Part shown: positions 48,697 to 58,554 of the stretch, one piece after another
Position numbering within the stretch: position 1 is the first letter of the stretch
Layout: each line of letters opens with the position of its first letter
Assembly: GCA_038363925.1 (NCBI GenBank)
Contig: JAQQWL010000003.1
Coordinates: 868,001 to 932,000, forward strand
From: Apiospora phragmitis
Taxonomy: Eukaryota; Ascomycota; Sordariomycetes; Amphisphaeriales; Apiosporaceae
DNA: 64,000 nt
Reading direction: 5' to 3'
Position numbers and translations under genes: made by a program
Notes under the pieces: generated by a model
Databases searched by the model: none
The model's input: only the letters and a program-made list of their open reading frames with translations
What the model was told of the DNA's origin: nothing

Positions 48697-51493
48697 TCAA
48701 CTCGTCTTCGACCGCTGGAATTTCTTTGCACCCTGAGGTCTCTTGTTATCCCTCCGACCAGTCAGTTCCACCTCCCCTTTCCTCTTCGCAACGATTTCCA
48801 TGCCCCCATTCGCGACCATGAGTGGTCGCACGTGTATTGGAGAAGATGGTACTGGCATAGTGATGTCCTGCGATTTCCAAGGTGTCGGCATCGTGGCATA
48901 CTCCTTCTTCGTATGGCACTTTTCGTGCATGTCGTTGAGCTTCTTGTAGACCTGATAACACGGTATGCGCTTGTTATCCGACGCCACCTCGACGACGAGC
49001 ATCTTCTGGAAGATCAAGTTCAGGAGGTCGTGGAAATAGTCAGAACACTTGGCATGAGCGTGCAGTTCGCAGATGAACTAATTTCACAGACAAAAGTGCC
49101 ATGTGAGTTGAAATCCTTGGCAAAGCGAGCTTGGGGTGTGGTAATGCTTACTTGAACGACAGCCGGTTTCACCGTCACGCTCCAAAGATCAGGCTCCTGT
49201 AGGCTCCTGATGTCGAAGAACGTATCTGACGGCATTTCCCAGTATTCGTCGAAGGCGCATCGCGCCTTGGCAAACTCCTTTACCTTCTCTGCGCCGCCGA
49301 GTGCCCAGGCCACGAAGACCAACAACAGGCAACCCAGGGACCACACATCGGACGACTGTCGGAATTTCTCATCCCCGAAGTGGCACTCTGGGGCTCGGTA
49401 GGCCATGGTGTCGGCGACTTCGGATCGCTTCCGAGTCTTGCATTGCCACTCATGCAGCTCGGCCTGGCCAAAGTCAGCGATCTTGAGTGTACCGTAGCTC
49501 CCTTCAGATCCCTGGAACCAGAGGATGTTCTCTGGCTTCAGGTCGCCGTGTCGTCCAAATTTCCACTGCCCTCCTCGCTCATGCAGTTCATTCTCAACGC
49601 CGATGTCATCCACAGGCCTTTTGCGTTTCCCCAACTCCGGCTTGCCCAGTGGGTCCTGGCTGCTGGATGTCGTAGTTGGATGAGTGAACTCTCTGCTGTG
49701 CGCATCGACTCGTTGCGGGTACGCAGACTGCACCAATGACTCTCCTTCGTCTCCCGCAGATATAGGAAAGGTATGATGTTTGTGGAGCCGCACGAGGCCA
49801 TCGGCGATGCCTTTGCACTGTCTCGCGACCCACAAGACCGTGTCCCGATTGAAGCTGGGCCTTGGGTTGATCTCTTTCCAATACTTGAATAAGTCGCCTT
49901 GGGCGCGGTAGAAGATCATGTGATACTTCCCACAATGCTCGTAGGTAGCCAACAGAGCAACAATATGCTCGTGAGCGTTATGTCCGACGAACTTCTGCAG
50001 GATTGCCACCTCGCGATTGAACTTGGCGGGGCTTCGGTGCATTAGCTGCTTGATGGCAAAGCCACGTTTGCAGGCTTCGGGGTCGCTGAAGTTATGGTGT
50101 TCTTGGTGGATGCGGACGGGAAAGACGGTTCCAAACCCGCCTTGGTGCGCAAAGTATTCATCATCAGCGCGGTCTTTCCATGGCAAGATGTGACTATCGT
50201 GGAGTTGGTAGTGTTGGACGTCGTTGTATTCACTTTCTCGGAAGAAAGGGGCTAGCATCATCCATTGGTACCGAAGGAAGCTTTCGCTCTCCACCCTGCT
50301 CCACTTCGACAGGCTCAAAAGAGGAACATTCGTGTCGTCCGAGTGGTGTTTGGGTGTTCCACTTGGCCGGCCAATACGATGACGGCCGTAGCTGCCATCA
50401 ACAACATCGACCAGGGGTAGGTCGAGATCACTGACGTCTTCCTCAACAACTTGCAGCATATCGGACGTCTTCTTGAACATAACAAGGAGTGCGAAGACCG
50501 GTTTGTAAGATTTGAGTTTGATTCGGCCGTCACCAACCATGAACTCTTGGTCACGGCAGATATATGCGGCATACTGCCGAAGATTCTCCTCGTCGTACCT
50601 ATGGGCGAAATGCTGGCTCAGCTCCTGGTAGACGGACTCCTCGGTGATGATATTGTCCAGCTGCTTCTTGGGTATAAAGCCCATGTCCCTCTTCCAAGGT
50701 TCGGCTTGGGGATGTTGAGTGAGCTGCCGGGCGGCAAAGATCCGATCCTCTAAGGTGCCGTCCAATTCCGGAGTGTATGAAAGGGAGGTGGCGTTCTCGT
50801 GCTTCTGTCCCTTGAACTGCTGAGTACCGGCGTCGGATATCACCGTAGGTGCTGTTTGCCGAAGAGCACCATCATGTGCATAATCCGCTGGGTCAAGTCC
50901 CTCAATAACCGAGAACCGAAACAAAGCGTGGCCATCTTCCGGCTCCCTCAAAGCACCAGGGAAGTCCTGGTGGGAGGTTTCAGCTACTAGGCATTGAAGA
51001 AGGATATAGGTGTCTGCTATCCAGGAATGACTTACAGCAGATGACGCATTATGCGCACGTCGGTTGCCGCTGAAGCCGGTAGCGGCGTTCGGAGAACTTG
51101 TAGTCAGGTGCTCGCTCAAGAAAAATGCTTGTACGTGAGAGATTTAATGATGCAGATGGTCCTAGGTCATCTTCGCTGTCATCTCTATCGCACATAACAT
51201 CACCTTCGTCTGAACTGAGATCTAGGGGGGGCATGTTTATTGACGGTATCGAAGCCCAGACCGCCATCCTTGGGGACGACAAGTTCTGGTAGACTGTGTC
51301 CAAGAGGAAGAAAACGAGGCTTGGCCAACAAGAGGCCAACAGAATTGACATTATGTGGAAGACGATCGGCTCCTTCGGGCTCGTTGGCTGCAATCGGAGC
51401 GAATATGACCTTGGCCTGTTTATCAGTCGTGGCAACTGTTCGATGACTCACATCGACATTTGATTGGTCGATGTACGGTACGGCAGGCGCCAT
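48697..51493 (-). CDS. Fungal protein kinase with long N-terminal region (kinase 1)
   Basis: Serine/threonine-type kinase of a fungus-specific group. The chosen start is MAPAVPYIDQSNVDVS; two homopolymer indels (a run of seven C near 51,223 and a T run near 51,120) must be bridged to join DLSSDEGDVMCDRDDSEDD and SEHLTTSSPNAATGFSG to the main frame. The N-terminal region contains LEDRIFAARQLTQHPQ and FLRYQWMMLAPFFRESEY. Kinase motifs are HQGGFGTVFPVRI (Gly loop), FAIKQL (Lys), REVAILQ, HGDLKPENILWF (HGD in place of HRD, catalytic Asp kept), ADFGQAEL, TMAYRAPE and DVWSLGCLLL. A 104-nt intron (49048-49151) leads to a last exon (CSDYFHDLLNLIFQKMLVVE) ending in a basic tail. It is related to kinase 2 and divergent from it. 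Confidence 0.85.
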
Positions 51494-52247: not shown

Positions 52248-52680
52248 ATGTCCAACGCGATTGAATTCTGGGGTTTTGCAGAGCGTAACCGCGGTGTCGT
52301 CAAATTCCCGACACAAGAACGATTGGAACAAGACCCGATCCCTTGCACCAACATCAGCTGCGAGAAGCTGGTAGCGACGCTGAGGCGACTCTATGGAGCG
52401 AACGGATATGAAGTCTCGGTAAGTTATCCTATCTATAACCGTCTGCTGAGTTGTGCGTACCTGTTCATGCTGACATGAAATGACGGAAGATAATGGACAG
52501 TTTCTATCACGTAAAGGCCCCAAGGCCCCTGTCGCAGGTTGGTTCTACCCACATCCTGCATGATACTAGAGGAAGGTGCTGACCATTTTCGTAGACACAA
52601 ATAGATGCGTGCAGGCGCAGCTTCCCGCGATTGTAGGCATGATCGGCACGGGCTGCTGGAATAACCTTACGACTTTATAA
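52248..52680 (+). CDS. Small three-exon gene between two kinases, unknown product
   Basis: Not recognised. Exons 52248-52418, 52501-52537 and 52595-52680, with donors GTAAGT and GTTGGT and acceptors GACAG and CGTAG. The second intron has a GCTGAC branch-like element. Phases agree and give 97 residues starting MSNAIEFWGFAERNRGVVKF, with CEKLVATLRRLYGANGYEVS joined to FLSRKGPKAPVADTNRCVQA and ending WNNLTTL. Four cysteines, no signal peptide, slightly hydrophobic end (LPAIVGMIGTGC). Its place between two related kinases suggests it may be part of the same system, but that is inference. Reading straight on past the first donor gives a different end (LFMLT), so transcript data are needed to choose. 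Confidence 0.55.
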
Positions 52681-53289: not shown

Positions 53290-56200
53290 ATGTACGAATT
53301 ATACCCTCCAGGCCTGGCTGATCGGATTCTCGAAAGTCAGGTCTTGAGTCAGTTTGATAGCAGCAGCCGAAACTTTCTGCCACACCGCGCCGGAGATTCC
53401 TTTGTCACTGCGCCATTGATAAGAGAAGAATTGGAGCTAGCACAGGACTATGACGATGAACTTTACCACGGACTTGTTCCGTGGATCCTCGTCAAGGCCA
53501 AGAAGGTCTTCCTGACCCTAATCAGGTGTGGAATGGAAGCGGGCAGAGCTAGGGAAGCGATGCGACTTTTCTGGTGGCATGATTTCCATGATCAGAGGCT
53601 TTCGGTATCTCAATTGAGCCTCGAGGATCAACGCTCGATCTTCCCCAGAAGCCTGTGGACCAAGTTCAAAGCATACGACTTTTTCTATACCTACAGATGG
53701 GAGAACCTGGCACCCGTATTTACAAAGACACAGTACGACTACAATCTCCACGAGAAGGGGATCCTCCCTTTCACCGAGAAAGATGCGAATGTCAAAGAAG
53801 GGGCTTTCAGCTGGGTACACAAGGTCACTGTACACACAGAGCACACAGAGCACGCCGATAAAGTGGTAAGGACACCCATATACTACTCCATCCTACCGGT
53901 CCTTCATCATAACACGCCAGCAGGTTGCTATCAAGGGAGATTCGTGTGAATAGGGGTGGCGACGACTCCAAAACAGACGAGGCATGGGAAAGGGAAGCGA
54001 GAGCTCTGGCTTCCATCAACCAAGTCGATCACCCTCACATAATTCGGTGCCTGGCCGCCATCAGAAGGCAGGACAGCCGATATTTCATGTTTCCTTGGGC
54101 GACAGGCGACAGTTTGCGAGATTTCTGGCTCGAAAGGCCGAAGCAGGCTCCAGATGCCAACCTGGTCAAAGAAACGCTGGAACAGCTGATGGGACTAGCC
54201 GAAGCTCTCGGTAAACTCCACGATTTTGAGGGTAAGGGACTGGATGCCTCAGCATTCCACCTGGATGAGGATGACGGCATAACCAGGGAAGGCGGACAAG
54301 ACTCCATTCGCCACGGCGATTTGAAACCCGAGAATCTCCTCAGGTTTCTCAAGCCGAAAGCGGTACTAGGAACTCTGAAGATTGGAGACATGGGGCTAGC
54401 AAAGAAACATGTCCTGCAGACGGTCAACCGTAAATGCATCACGACTACAAGGTGCGGTACCATTCAGTACCAGCCCCCTGAGGCCGAACTAAGCACCAGC
54501 GGGGGGCTCTCACGTCTCTATGATACATGGTCCATGGGATGCATCATCTTCGAGTTCGTCATCTGGCTCTTGTATGGAAATGATGCACTCGAACGGTTTT
54601 ACCAAGACCTCCAGGGAACCTCACGTAACCCCTGCCCCTATTTCGAACTTTCGGCACCAGGCTCCGGCGGAGGCCCTGCAGTACATCGCGCGGTGCATAC
54701 CTGGGCAGCCCATTTGCAGAAAAATGATCCGGAGTGCGGCGCAGACTCTGCCATAGGTGACCTGCTTAGGTTGGTCCGGAACAAGCTTCTGCTTGTCGAC
54801 CTACCACCGTCGCGCGGAAAAACCCAACGAGCCGGCTCAGCAGAGCCCACCATCGCCATCATCCAGCCCCCGATCTCCGGGGTAGTGGGACTCGGGCACA
54901 GGGCCACGGCCGAAGGTCTCTTTGAGGGCCTGGCGACAATCGCGAACAAGGTGAGTCGGGATCCGAAGTATCTACTGACGGGAGCAGACAGAGGAAATAT
55001 CAACCTGCCGCCGCTGCCTCAGGACCAACCCACCTTCCTTTCTCCAGGTAACGGAGCTCGAAAACGGAAAGCGGCAGAAATTACTTCTGAAATCGAAGTA
55101 AAAGGACTTGGCGTGCCAGTCCCGCCAGCCCCTATCCGGGTGAGTTTCACTACACCCCATAATGGCGTCACGTTTCGGATGACAGCTGACAGGTTACTAG
55201 ACTGTAGGTTGATGACTCAAAATCCCCCCCTAGCCTGAGCTAACCCATGATCTCGCCCGACCATACAGGATGTGAGTTTATACCGCAAACACTTGAGAGT
55301 ATATTGTTCTTAATTGAGCTGACGTTATCCCACCACAACCTGTAGTATGTAAGTTTATGAACAACCTTGTCCTAGTAGCGATATTTCCACTAATGACTGT
55401 AGGCGGTACGTATCTATCTTACAGCTCGGTCAAAATGATAATGCAAGTGACATTAGTTCTGATGTGGTATTTATCAAACAGCTCGTGAGTTCACCGATTC
55501 CGCGCCACTATATGATGAATTTGCTGATTCTGGATTAGCCAGTAAGTATTGCTTCATTCCCCGTGAAGGTCACCTCCTGGAGGTAGACCAAGACATTCTT
55601 GAAGTAAACGTTCTCTAGCCCGTAAGTGCACCTTGCTCCCCGATTCCTTTCTCTTGTTCCTCTGTTAAAATCCCGTTGTCTAGCTCAAGGATTGGTCTTA
55701 TCCAGTGGACAATGACTTTGCTCAAGTGGTATCCCGAACACTTGGGCGTGACAAGCTTCTGCCGCCGAATGCAGGTGTTAGCAAGTTGTGCAATCGCTGC
55801 TTGAGACTGGACTTCTGGGTTGGGGGTTTCTCATTTGAGGTCTCTCCCTCCCAGCTGCAGCATGACCTCACCACATGCGACTTTTGTCGTATACTACTAC
55901 AGGTGTGTACCAAGTACGACATGAGCAGAGAAGCCAAGATATCGTTCATTCGGGAGCAATCCACTCTGAGGATTCTCGGTGGCCCCCCACAGCCAGTCTT
56001 GGCTATCCTACGAAGTCCAGGTACGTGACGTTCCAAGCTCTTTCTGGGGCCGACACCTAACAGTTCCTCGTCACAAGATTCCAAACCACCTGTCCCAGTA
56101 CAGCTCGGCTTCCCACAGCTTCCACCCGCCGCCACCGAGACGAGCTTCGAGATCATCCGGCTTTGGCTACAGGATTGCGACTCCAAACATGCCAATTGCC

Positions 56201-57819
56201 GTGGTCATGATTTAGTGACCGCTCCAACAAGGCTGATCGAAATTGGAGTCCAGAAAAAGCTCACTCTCCGCCTCATCGAGACGGCCGAAAGCCCCCCACA
56301 AGACGACAAGTACATCGCCTTATCCCACCCCTGGGGTGACAAGATCAAGCATCCGCCCTTCTGTACATGGCAGACCGATATCCGCCAAGATGGTCACGAT
56401 CTCCAGTCGTTAAAGCGGGCCATCCCCTTCGAAAAGATGCCTGCCACCTTCCAGCACGCCGTCACAGTCGCCCGATCTCTCGGCGTCCGCTACCTCTGGA
56501 TCGACTCGATCTGCATCATCCAAGGCCCGGATGGCGACTTTAACGAAGAGGCGAGCCGCATGGAGGACGTCTTCAGCGGCGCGTACTGCGTCCTGGCCGC
56601 GAGCCGCGCTACGGGCATGCACGACGGCTTTCTCGACCAGCGCCGCGCCCGCGACTTCGTTACCTTCGCGCGGACGCCCGCCGAGAAGGCGTTTTTCGTC
56701 TGCGAGCCCATCGACGACTTCAGCCGGGACATGCTCGAGAGCCCTCTGAATAGGCGCGGCTGGGTGTTGCAGGAGCGCGCCCTGGCCCGCCGGTCGGTGT
56801 ACTTCACCAAGACTCAGATGTACTTCGAGTGCGGGGAGGGGATTCGATGCGAGACATTGGCACGTATGCAAAAGTAAGTCAACCTACCCCTGATTGTCTC
56901 CTAAGAATGTACTGATAATCGGCTTTCTATCACCTATTAGCAATCTCGCCGCCTTCCTTGGCGATCCGAGATTCCCCCAAAAGGCCATGGAAGGCCGCCG
57001 CGGCATGAAGATCGCCTACTTCCAGGACCTCTACAAGCAGTATTCTCGCCTTGAGTTCACCCGGATGGAGGACCGCGCCGTCGCCATCCTCGGGCTCGAG
57101 AACCGGCTGCGCAAGGCCTACGGCACCGCCGGCGGCTTCGGCGTCTTCGACGACGGGCCCGACGGGGGGCTCTTCCACCGCAGCCTGCTCTGGCGGCGCG
57201 GCGTGGAACAAACTAAACCCAACATGCGGCCCATCGTATTCCCCCTCGAGCGCCGCCGCGGCACCGCCGATGTGCCGAAGTGGTCCTGGATGGCCTACGC
57301 GGGCCCCATCGACTATCTCCTCGAGCCACCCTTCGACGAGGAGATGGAGTGGGAGACGCGCGACATCCGACCGCCGTGGTCGCGACACCACCAGCAGCAG
57401 CAGCACCGCCAAAAGCGACAACGGCCCGGTCATTTCCTGTCGGCCGAGACCAGGTCGGCGACGGCCCCGCTCTTGGACGACGCACAGACGACGGTGCCCT
57501 CGCTCGCCGTGGTGGCGCGCGACTTCAACGTCGCCGGGTTCCGGGACGGCGAGGTGCAGGTCCTGTACGACGCGGACCGTAGCGCGTCGGACGGCGGGAG
57601 CAAGGCGCAGTGCGTGGTGGTCGCGCGGACCAGGCGTGGCAGCTCCCGGGCCGCGAAGAGGCACTACGTGCTGATCGTGGCGGCGGATGCCAAGGCGTCG
57701 GGGCCGGTGGGTGGGCGATCGCTGGGGGGCGGTGGAAGTATCACCGGATCGGGGTGGGATATATGTTGGGCAAGTTTATTGCGTGGGATAAGCCCGCCTT
57801 TGATGGGTTGGTTTACTGA
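53290..57819 (+). CDS. Predicted kinase-HET fusion protein, spliced via micro-exons
   Basis: Kinase part: start MYELYPPGLADRILESQVLS; a 58-nt intron (53866-53923) precedes VAIK; one extra G follows the Lys codon. Motifs: KEGAFSWVHKV (Gly-loop place), VAIK, EREARALASIN, HGDLKPENLLRF, DMG for DFG, QPPEAE for APE, DTWSMGCIIFEF. The kinase frame reaches PAPIR at a GTGAGT donor (55140); unspliced it stops at 55238. HET part: the frame opens after CTAG at 55684 (LKDWSYPVDNDFAQVV), with LCNRCLRLDFW, CDFCRILL, KYIALSHPWGD, LGVRYLWIDSICIIQ and GWVLQERALARRSVYFT. An intron (56874-56940) precedes NLAAFLGDPRFPQK. The end YHRIGVGYMLGKFIAWDK fits HET proteins and needs a frame change near 57,700. Another break lies at the 56,020-56,083 intron. 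HET proteins mediate heterokaryon incompatibility and cell death; a kinase on the same chain suggests sensing or signalling control. Confidence 0.75.
55140..55683 (+). other. Ladder of eight introns and seven 3-nt exons
   Basis: Introns by position: 55140-55200, 55204-55268, 55272-55345, 55349-55402, 55406-55481, 55485-55538, 55542-55618, 55622-55683 (61, 65, 74, 54, 76, 54, 77 and 62 nt). Between them sit exons ACT, GAT, TAT, GCG, CTC, CCA and CCC. Donors are GTGAGT, GTAGGT, GTGAGT, GTAAGT, GTACGT, GTGAGT, GTAAGT and GTAAGT; acceptors are TAG or CAG throughout. Branch-like CTAAC, CTGAC and CTAAT elements are visible in several. Every micro-exon is phase 0 and one codon, linking the kinase frame to the HET frame as T-D-Y-A-L-P-P. 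Confidence 0.8.
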
Positions 57820-57841
57820 CGTGGGAATTGCTAAGCTAAAG

Positions 57842-57885
57842 CACCCCTCACGGGCCACCCCCTCACGGGCCACCCCCTCACGGGC
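57842..57885 (+). repeat. Three tandem copies of a 15-bp GC-rich unit
   Basis: CACCCCCTCACGGGC repeated three times (first copy one C shorter), placed between the HET stop codon and the abrupt start of AT-rich DNA. Confidence 0.9.
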
Positions 57886-58278
57886 CACTTTACTGAGCTA
57901 CCGTTACCCCTGTAATTAAAGCCATTTTTACGGCTATAATTAATATAAATATATTATCTTTTATTATTTTTAATAATAATATAATTTTTCGCCTCCGTGC
58001 TATTATTTTTTATAGCTTTTATAGCGTTACGAGGCCCTCTTAATACTTCGATATCGCTAGCTTCGTCCTTGTATACGACTTTACCCTTGTTACGACTTAA
58101 CGTAATTATACGGCTAGACCTATACTCGGCACGGCGATATTATATCTCGAGGCGCTTACGAAAGTTAATATTAAAATTTATACTATTAATTAATATTAAT
58201 AAACTTACTTATAATAATAAATATTATACCGCTATAATATTATAATAATTAATACTACGAAAATAATACTATTAGAAT

Positions 58279-58554
58279 AGCAGGAACTAAGGTTTTCTAT
58301 ATTACTCTAAAAAAGGTGCTACATACCTACGCGCACGAACCCCTTTCCTATTTTATTAAGAGGGGCATACGATGCCCCTTATAGCTCGTATTAAAAATAG
58401 ATATAAATATTAGAACAGCAGGAACTAAGGTTTTCTATATTACTTTAAAAAAAGGATTACGTACCTACGCGTACGAACCCCTTTCTTATTTTATTAAGAG
58501 GGGGTATATAATACCCCTTATAACTCGTACTAAAGATAAATATAAATAATAGAA
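58279..58554 (+). repeat. Tandem duplication, two 138-bp units with hairpin
   Basis: Two copies (58279-58416 and 58417-58554) begin AGCAGGAACTAAGG and stay alignable throughout. Differences are mostly C/T or G/A. Each unit contains an inverted repeat: GGGGCAT and ATGCCCC in the first, GGGGTAT and ATACCCC in the second, so the stem is kept although its sequence has changed. Confidence 0.85.

Follow-up and report, generated by a model that had tools for sequence, protein, structure and literature searches.

Seven putative one-codon micro-exons, set between eight short introns, join the kinase and HET regions of a TOL-like gene of Apiospora phragmitis, and the codons that they would contribute spell a motif known from the linker of kinase-HET proteins. 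The evidence taken together makes it probable that this is a genuine seven-exon ladder, spliced by ordinary intron definition, which supplies a T-D-Y-A-L-P-P linker to one kinase-HET protein; the motif is likely to be older than the ladder, and the ladder itself mostly a tolerated by-product. The window analysed is the whole stretch of 64,000 nucleotides taken from contig JAQQWL010000003.1, and positions are those of the window unless a genome locus is named.

A motif search of the window for YAG-N3-GTRNGT finds the ladder on the + strand between the kinase frame and the HET frame, with motifs starting at 55198, 55266, 55343, 55400, 55479, 55536 and 55616 and a total span of 55198-55627. The motifs bound eight phase-0 introns of 61, 65, 74, 54, 76, 54, 77 and 62 nt, all of which start with GTRNGT and end with YAG (Table 1). 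The sequence-only reading of this DNA had described seven motifs with intron-sized spacing, and each was found in its place, with introns of 54-77 nt. The triplets ACT GAT TAT GCG CTC CCA CCC read T-D-Y-A-L-P-P and are followed by LKDW; the predicted fully spliced join is CCTATCCGG, then ACTGATTATGCGCTCCCACCC, then CTCAAGGATTGG. Read from the kinase exon through the seven codons into the HET exons, the spliced sequence has no stop for 1,048 amino acids, bounded at either end by a change of frame. The proposal that seven phase-0 one-codon micro-exons connect kinase to HET in phase is borne out by this open frame and by the homologues that share the heptapeptide, such that a one-codon ladder joining the two regions is confirmed at the level of the sequence.

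Table 1. Modelled features of the kinase-HET gene, in window positions
Feature	Position	Strand	Description
Exon 5' of kinase core	53290..53865	+	starts MYELYPPGL, the annotated start of P0001 (comparison by eye)
Probable intron	53866..53923	+	GTAAGG...CAG; P0002 continuous there
Kinase exon	53928..55139	+	exon begins at about 53924, frame read from 53928; ends ...PPAPIR; Pfam PF00069, E 4.4e-19
Intron 1	55140..55200	+	61 nt, GTGAGT..TAG, branch GCTGAC
Micro-exon 1	55201..55203	+	ACT = T; A or T in 43 of 56 motif-bearing homologues
Intron 2	55204..55268	+	65 nt, GTAGGT..CAG, branch GCTAAC
Micro-exon 2	55269..55271	+	GAT = D; D in 51 of 56 motif-bearing homologues
Intron 3	55272..55345	+	74 nt, GTGAGT..TAG, branch GCTGAC
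Micro-exon 3	55346..55348	+	TAT = Y; Y in 55 of 56 motif-bearing homologues
Intron 4	55349..55402	+	54 nt, GTAAGT..TAG, branch ACTAAT
Micro-exon 4	55403..55405	+	GCG = A; T, S or A in 53 of 56 motif-bearing homologues, A in 5
Intron 5	55406..55481	+	76 nt, GTACGT..CAG, branch candidates only with one mismatch
Micro-exon 5	55482..55484	+	CTC = L; L in 54 of 56 motif-bearing homologues
Intron 6	55485..55538	+	54 nt, GTGAGT..TAG, branch GCTGAT
Micro-exon 6	55539..55541	+	CCA = P; P in 54 of 56 motif-bearing homologues
Intron 7	55542..55618	+	77 nt, GTAAGT..TAG, one-mismatch branch candidates, nearest GTAAAC
Micro-exon 7	55619..55621	+	CCC = P; P in 52 of 56 motif-bearing homologues
Intron 8	55622..55683	+	62 nt, GTAAGT..TAG, branch candidate GTTAAA (one mismatch)
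First HET exon	55684..56020	+	begins LKDWSYPVDNDFA...; aligned to homologues
Ordinary intron	56021..56077	+	GTACGT...AAG; acceptor placed from reading frame and homologues, probable
HET core exon	56078..56873	+	Pfam PF06985, E 1.6e-26
Ordinary intron	56874..56940	+	GTAAGT..TAG, branch ACTGAT
Last HET exon	56941..57720	+	until frame change near 57,722-57,735; compared by eye with P0002 and P0003

Both the density of the motifs and the length of the intron chain are far from chance. The earlier estimate of one motif per about 16,000 positions is correct for equal base frequencies. Over both strands the window holds 10 matches, seven of them in the ladder, and dinucleotide shuffling leads to an expectation of 4.86 (sd 2.23) per window. 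Outside this ladder and a second one described below, 18 motifs occur in 584,002 strand-bases of the genome (54 stretches, with some overlap left in); at the genome background 0.013 motifs are expected per 430 nt, and the Poisson probability of at least seven is 1.4e-17. Chains of at least three introns joined by 3-nt exons occur at two places only, the two ladders, in the 292,001 bases examined, which make up about half a percent of the genome and are the part to which this scarcity applies. In 60 dinucleotide shuffles of those bases, the longest such chain was two in 39 shuffles, three in 20 and four in one, and never eight. The signal is specific to exons of 3 nt, given that chains in the real sequence built with exon lengths of 0, 1, 2, 4-9, 12 or 15 are at most three long.

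The introns also carry branch points, which were sought as RYTRAY, the consensus quoted for Aspergillus nidulans in PMC12403724, with the A 8-27 nt before the intron end. An exact match is present in five of the eight ladder introns of the window, and the remaining three have candidates with one mismatch. When the two ladders are pooled, 10 of 13 introns have an exact branch point, compared with a background of 6.3% of 15,771 YAG sites (P 2.5e-10). Against the 743 YAG sites that have an upstream donor, 10.5% of which are exact, the same count gives P 3.4e-8.

The second ladder lies in a diverged kinase-HET paralogue at G000:C1:2464172-2467164, where the kinase matches best at 37% and the HET part at 41%. 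Its junction contains five introns (L026 791-852, 856-920, 924-991, 995-1047 and 1051-1106), all with an exact branch point, and the four phase-0 triplets between them, TAT AAT TTG AAT, read Y-N-L-N. Two exact YAG-N3-GTRNGT motifs fall within 316 nt (P about 5e-5), and intron 2 combines a weak donor (GTCGGT) with AAG as its last three bases. Judged by length alone, three strong introns in a chain are nothing unusual, as a chain of at least three was reached in 21 of 60 shuffles. Y-N-x-x is absent from most of the listed homologues of this paralogue, and DEYN is found at a like distance from the W in P0183, P0191 and P0193. This junction is a probable second ladder, shorter than the first and partly degenerate. 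If the Y-x-L of the two genes is aligned, five intron positions coincide over this short alignment, suggesting that the ladder predates the duplication. Two of the introns, 56021-56077 in the window and L026 856-920, seemingly end in AAG instead of YAG, as judged by frame and homology.

As context, a census of domain families in this genome gives at least 151 HET, at least 41 NACHT and at least 139 kinase matches. A third kinase-HET gene, at C2:551500-557500, has a continuous junction with no ladder and a diverged motif, and by eye no HET frame accompanies the kinase matches at C2:560243 and C16:452416 in lists of open reading frames of at least 120 amino acids. At L055 3092-3266 (+), opposite a kinase gene, two intron-like stretches flank one triplet (TCG); such pairs occur at chance level.

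An argument for inclusion of all seven codons comes from homologous proteins. Of 215 matches the best 120 were listed; 106 of the listed proteins allowed the junction to be placed and 14 did not. The linker of the kinase-HET family has the motif [AT]DY[TSA]LPP-LKDW, and the heptapeptide pattern is present in 56 of the 106 placed homologues. The 50 that lack it are P0001-P0005, six more up to P0069, and 39 from P0071 on, which is the more distant part of the list. At the junction, Neocucurbitaria (P0006) reads RADYTLPPLKDW and Macroventuria (P0007) RPADYTLPPMKDW, and the window reads R-TDYALPP-LKDW, a match to the family motif that is obtained only with all seven micro-exons included. TDYALPP itself occurs verbatim in just one of the 335 proteins compared, P0029. 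A profile was made from all 101 homologues placed among P0006-P0120, whether or not they bear the motif. Only two of the 2,520 orderings of the seven residues score as high as TDYALPP or higher on this profile, namely TDYALPP and ADYTLPP, and none of 2,000,000 random draws from the YAG-to-GT codons of the genome equals or beats it. The exact tail is 3e-7 if the background includes the ladder codons and 2e-7 if it excludes both ladders; for a profile of the 57 motif-bearing homologues it is 7e-8, with the ladder codons in the background. The match of the predicted heptapeptide to the family is independent of the splice signals.

The predicted structure of P0013, a relative with the motif, has a mean pLDDT of 71 (42-row alignment). 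ADYSLPP (residues 367-373) closes a linker of low confidence, with pLDDT < 50 over 333-373, and immediately precedes the HET part. Given this location directly before the HET part, the motif may be a short docking motif.

In the proposed mechanism, ordinary intron definition would remove eight short U2 introns one after another and the seven codons would be joined, to give a single protein with T-D-Y-A-L-P-P between kinase and HET. Because intron definition is what PMC12403724 states for the Ascomycota, no special machinery would be needed in principle. With only 3 nt between them, neighbouring introns would have overlapping splicing factors, and therefore the introns are probably removed sequentially or alternately. 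Full inclusion would be the main functional outcome and the ladder largely a tolerated by-product, since leaving out any of the codons does not shift the frame and the linker around them is predicted to be flexible.

The consequences of incomplete splicing bear on an earlier suggestion, that skipping or retention decides whether the kinase alone or the kinase-HET protein is made. All 128 of the 128 possible combinations of skipped micro-exons preserve the frame and yield a fusion protein, and therefore skipping cannot uncouple kinase from HET. Retention could, as a premature stop follows whichever single intron is kept (eight of eight); the stop comes after 3-22 codons if the intron is one of the first seven and after 67 if it is the eighth. 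The suggested switch is thus supported in part. The same counts fit a ladder that is regulatory, in which the eight splicing events gate the HET part: retention would stop translation before HET and skipping would generate up to 128 in-frame linkers, as proposed for the NACHT-ANK genes of Tuber. The 3-bp micro-exons of those genes are a precedent, and the presence of junction ladders in two paralogues suggests that the arrangement has long been conserved. Stops after intron retention are common for fungal introns in general, and the conservation of the residues in about half of the placed homologues argues for full inclusion and not for variation, such that a regulatory role is conceivable but rather unlikely. 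In a more speculative and unlikely version, the ladder would act as a safety lock for a cell-death gene: eight serial steps, all obligatory, would make output of the kinase-HET protein depend steeply on splicing, in-frame skips would yield linker-length variants, and the arrangement would have been kept through duplication and across the genus for that reason.

The gene that would carry this fully included linker has P0001, a TOL protein of A. phragmitis, as its nearest database protein, and is identical to it in the kinase exon from DEAW on and in the region of the R/L junction. In the spliced reading PF00069 and PF06985 are both above cut-off in one open frame, as both domains are also found in the seven best homologues; a TOL-like kinase-HET fusion is therefore the supported reading of the gene. 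At its 5' end, no branch-point candidate was found in the probable intron 53866..53923. The codons for the VAIK lysine segment come right after 53923 and are followed by a shift of frame at about 53936; this segment is omitted from the published model P0001. A candidate intron inside the kinase exon (54951-55047, GTGAGT..CAG) was rejected because its removal creates a stop before 55139. On inspection by eye, an open reading frame at 52248-52,440 (MSNAIEFWGFAERNRGVVKF...) matches the N-terminal end of P0002, which makes it probable that the true start of the gene lies some 1 kb upstream of the annotated one. Adjoining the kinase-HET gene is a kinase-like frame of 707 amino acids on the - strand (49020-51143; 39% over its core). 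Directly 3' of the gene (57,840-58,500), a CACGGGCCACCCCCT-like repeat occurs in about three copies, followed by a strongly AT-rich stretch with repeated blocks.

The frame changes near 53936 and at 57,722-57,735 may mean that this gene copy is damaged or that the assembly contains errors. The ladder could then be real but an unused relic in a decaying gene, a reading that the frame change between kinase and linker in the C1 paralogue also favours. Both frame changes in the window lie in runs of G, however, a frequent site of long-read assembly errors. The spliced frame of 1,048 codons between them is open and all eight introns keep donor and acceptor, which makes decay an improbable explanation.

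Published gene models do not show the ladder. Among the 120 listed matches, Apiospora is represented by eight kinase models from seven species (P0001-P0004, P0008, P0012, P0019 and P0042) and one separate HET model (P0073), and in none of these nine is the heptapeptide found at the junction; look-alikes in P0008 and P0012 lie elsewhere. The R is followed straight by LKDW in P0001-P0004 (A. phragmitis, A. saccharicola, A. hydei and A. marii) and in P0005 (Paramyrothecium foliicola). Models of several species thus appear to have been published without the linker residues. Taken at face value, the exact join in P0001 and the RLKDW of P0002-P0005 would mean that a single 544-base intron, 55140-55683, is removed to give PAPIR-LKDW as annotated, with the motifs as decoys or relics. 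Such decoys would spell the family motif in order and carry branch points, and 544 nt is far above the 57-67 nt measured for the gene's three other modelled introns, which are about the size of the ladder introns; a single intron is very unlikely.

Other models end or begin within the junction. In A. rasikravindrae the kinase model P0012 ends GIR-T-V-R and the HET model P0073 starts MLSNQQPLKDW. The window sequence with intron 2 kept reads T-V-G-stop, and the end of P0012 may be explained by use of the first micro-exon and then read-through into the next intron. P0019, from A. sp. TS-2023a, continues NR-VSHP, as if intron 1 were kept, and the HET-only model P0255 of that species starts within the HET part, so that its kinase and HET are probably separate models too. 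That these are truly two genes, a kinase ending at 55238 and a HET gene starting downstream, is extremely improbable in spite of these annotations: the HET frame opens at 55684 but its first ATG comes only after conserved cysteines, such that a separate HET gene would need another start spliced in, and fused homologues in other fungi run across the junction. Outside Apiospora, kinase-HET models that jump straight to L-x-x-W without the motif occur in Kalmusia (P0041), Lophium mytilinum (P0056) and Paramyrothecium (P0005), where further hidden micro-exons are possible. In plants, micro-exons of at most 15 nt are described as often overlooked in annotation (PMC8831610).

With the ladder read as seven genuine exons, its origin can be considered. 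With its residues shared by 56 of the 106 placed relatives, about half, which come from other fungal families, the motif probably predates the ladder. Gain or multiplication of introns would therefore have placed one at each codon boundary of a motif that was already conserved, perhaps before the duplication that produced the second gene in this genome. Given the residues carried by these relatives, the simplest account is a series of intron gains at codon boundaries next to each other. Tandem duplication of a unit of intron plus codon was rejected, as the stretch contains no tandem repeat and the introns are not clearly alike: over the 78 intron pairs from both ladders the mean z is 0.16 and the highest values are 2.6-3.0. 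Ungapped direct repeats in the ladder stretch reach only 11-19 nt, one of them around the motif itself. A mobile intron family was also rejected, as a 621-base ladder query has one match in the genome, which is itself. Neither the 78 intron pairs nor this genome match revealed an introner-like family of similar introns.

The sequence-only reading had regarded such a ladder as not known to be described, which is too strong. The NACHT-ANK genes of Tuber melanosporum, an NLR type, are reported to diversify via alternatively spliced, codon-sized micro-exons (PMC3689799 and PMC4986451, citing Iotti et al. 2012), given as 3-bp long in a review (PMC10197012). Both cases involve a fungal family of self/nonself type, arrays of 3-bp exons, predicted ones here, and frame-neutral skipping. 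The window gene differs in that it is a kinase-HET gene without NACHT or ankyrin, with Pfam matches to kinase and HET families only, and in that its codons spell one fixed linker motif; the micro-exons of Tuber are reported to be alternatively spliced, whereas those of the window are predicted from the sequence.

Other known systems are less close. Flatworm micro-exon genes are defined in PMC7653826 by at least seven exons, at least half of them micro-exons, with a run of at least four consecutive. The window gene has this structure, with seven of 12 modelled exons as micro-exons, all in one run of seven and with the 5' exons uncertain, but the likeness is one of structure and not of ancestry: the genes are unrelated, and the window micro-exons are all 3 nt and belong to one short linker within a large protein. 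Xlr2 of Trichoderma, also from a filamentous ascomycete, has a glucose-regulated micro-exon of 20 nt that had earlier been missed (PMC11121469), but it is a single exon and not an array. The stwintrons of Xylariales are nested, with one intron splitting the splice site of another (PMC12403724); they resemble the ladder as complex fungal intervening sequences removed by successive intron-definition events, but the window introns are adjacent, each with its own donor and acceptor and with 3-nt coding triplets between them. Human RPS24 has consecutive micro-exons of 3, 18 and 22 bp (PMC11162997), but these are three and not seven, from an animal, and isoform-specific. In the accessible text of the openly licensed literature no ladder was found in a kinase-HET gene, and none is described there that spells a conserved motif codon by codon. 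Therefore, as far as these sources go, arrays of 3-bp micro-exons are already known, and what is new is a strikingly pure ladder in a related class of fungal gene.

If confirmed by RNA, seven 3-nt exons that spell a conserved motif residue by residue would be a natural test of minimal exon size and of how adjacent spliceosomes avoid each other. The ladder would also show introns accumulating at all the codon boundaries of a short conserved stretch, and would thereby be a sharp case in the study of intron gain. Similar hidden micro-exons may exist elsewhere in the immune-type genes of fungi.
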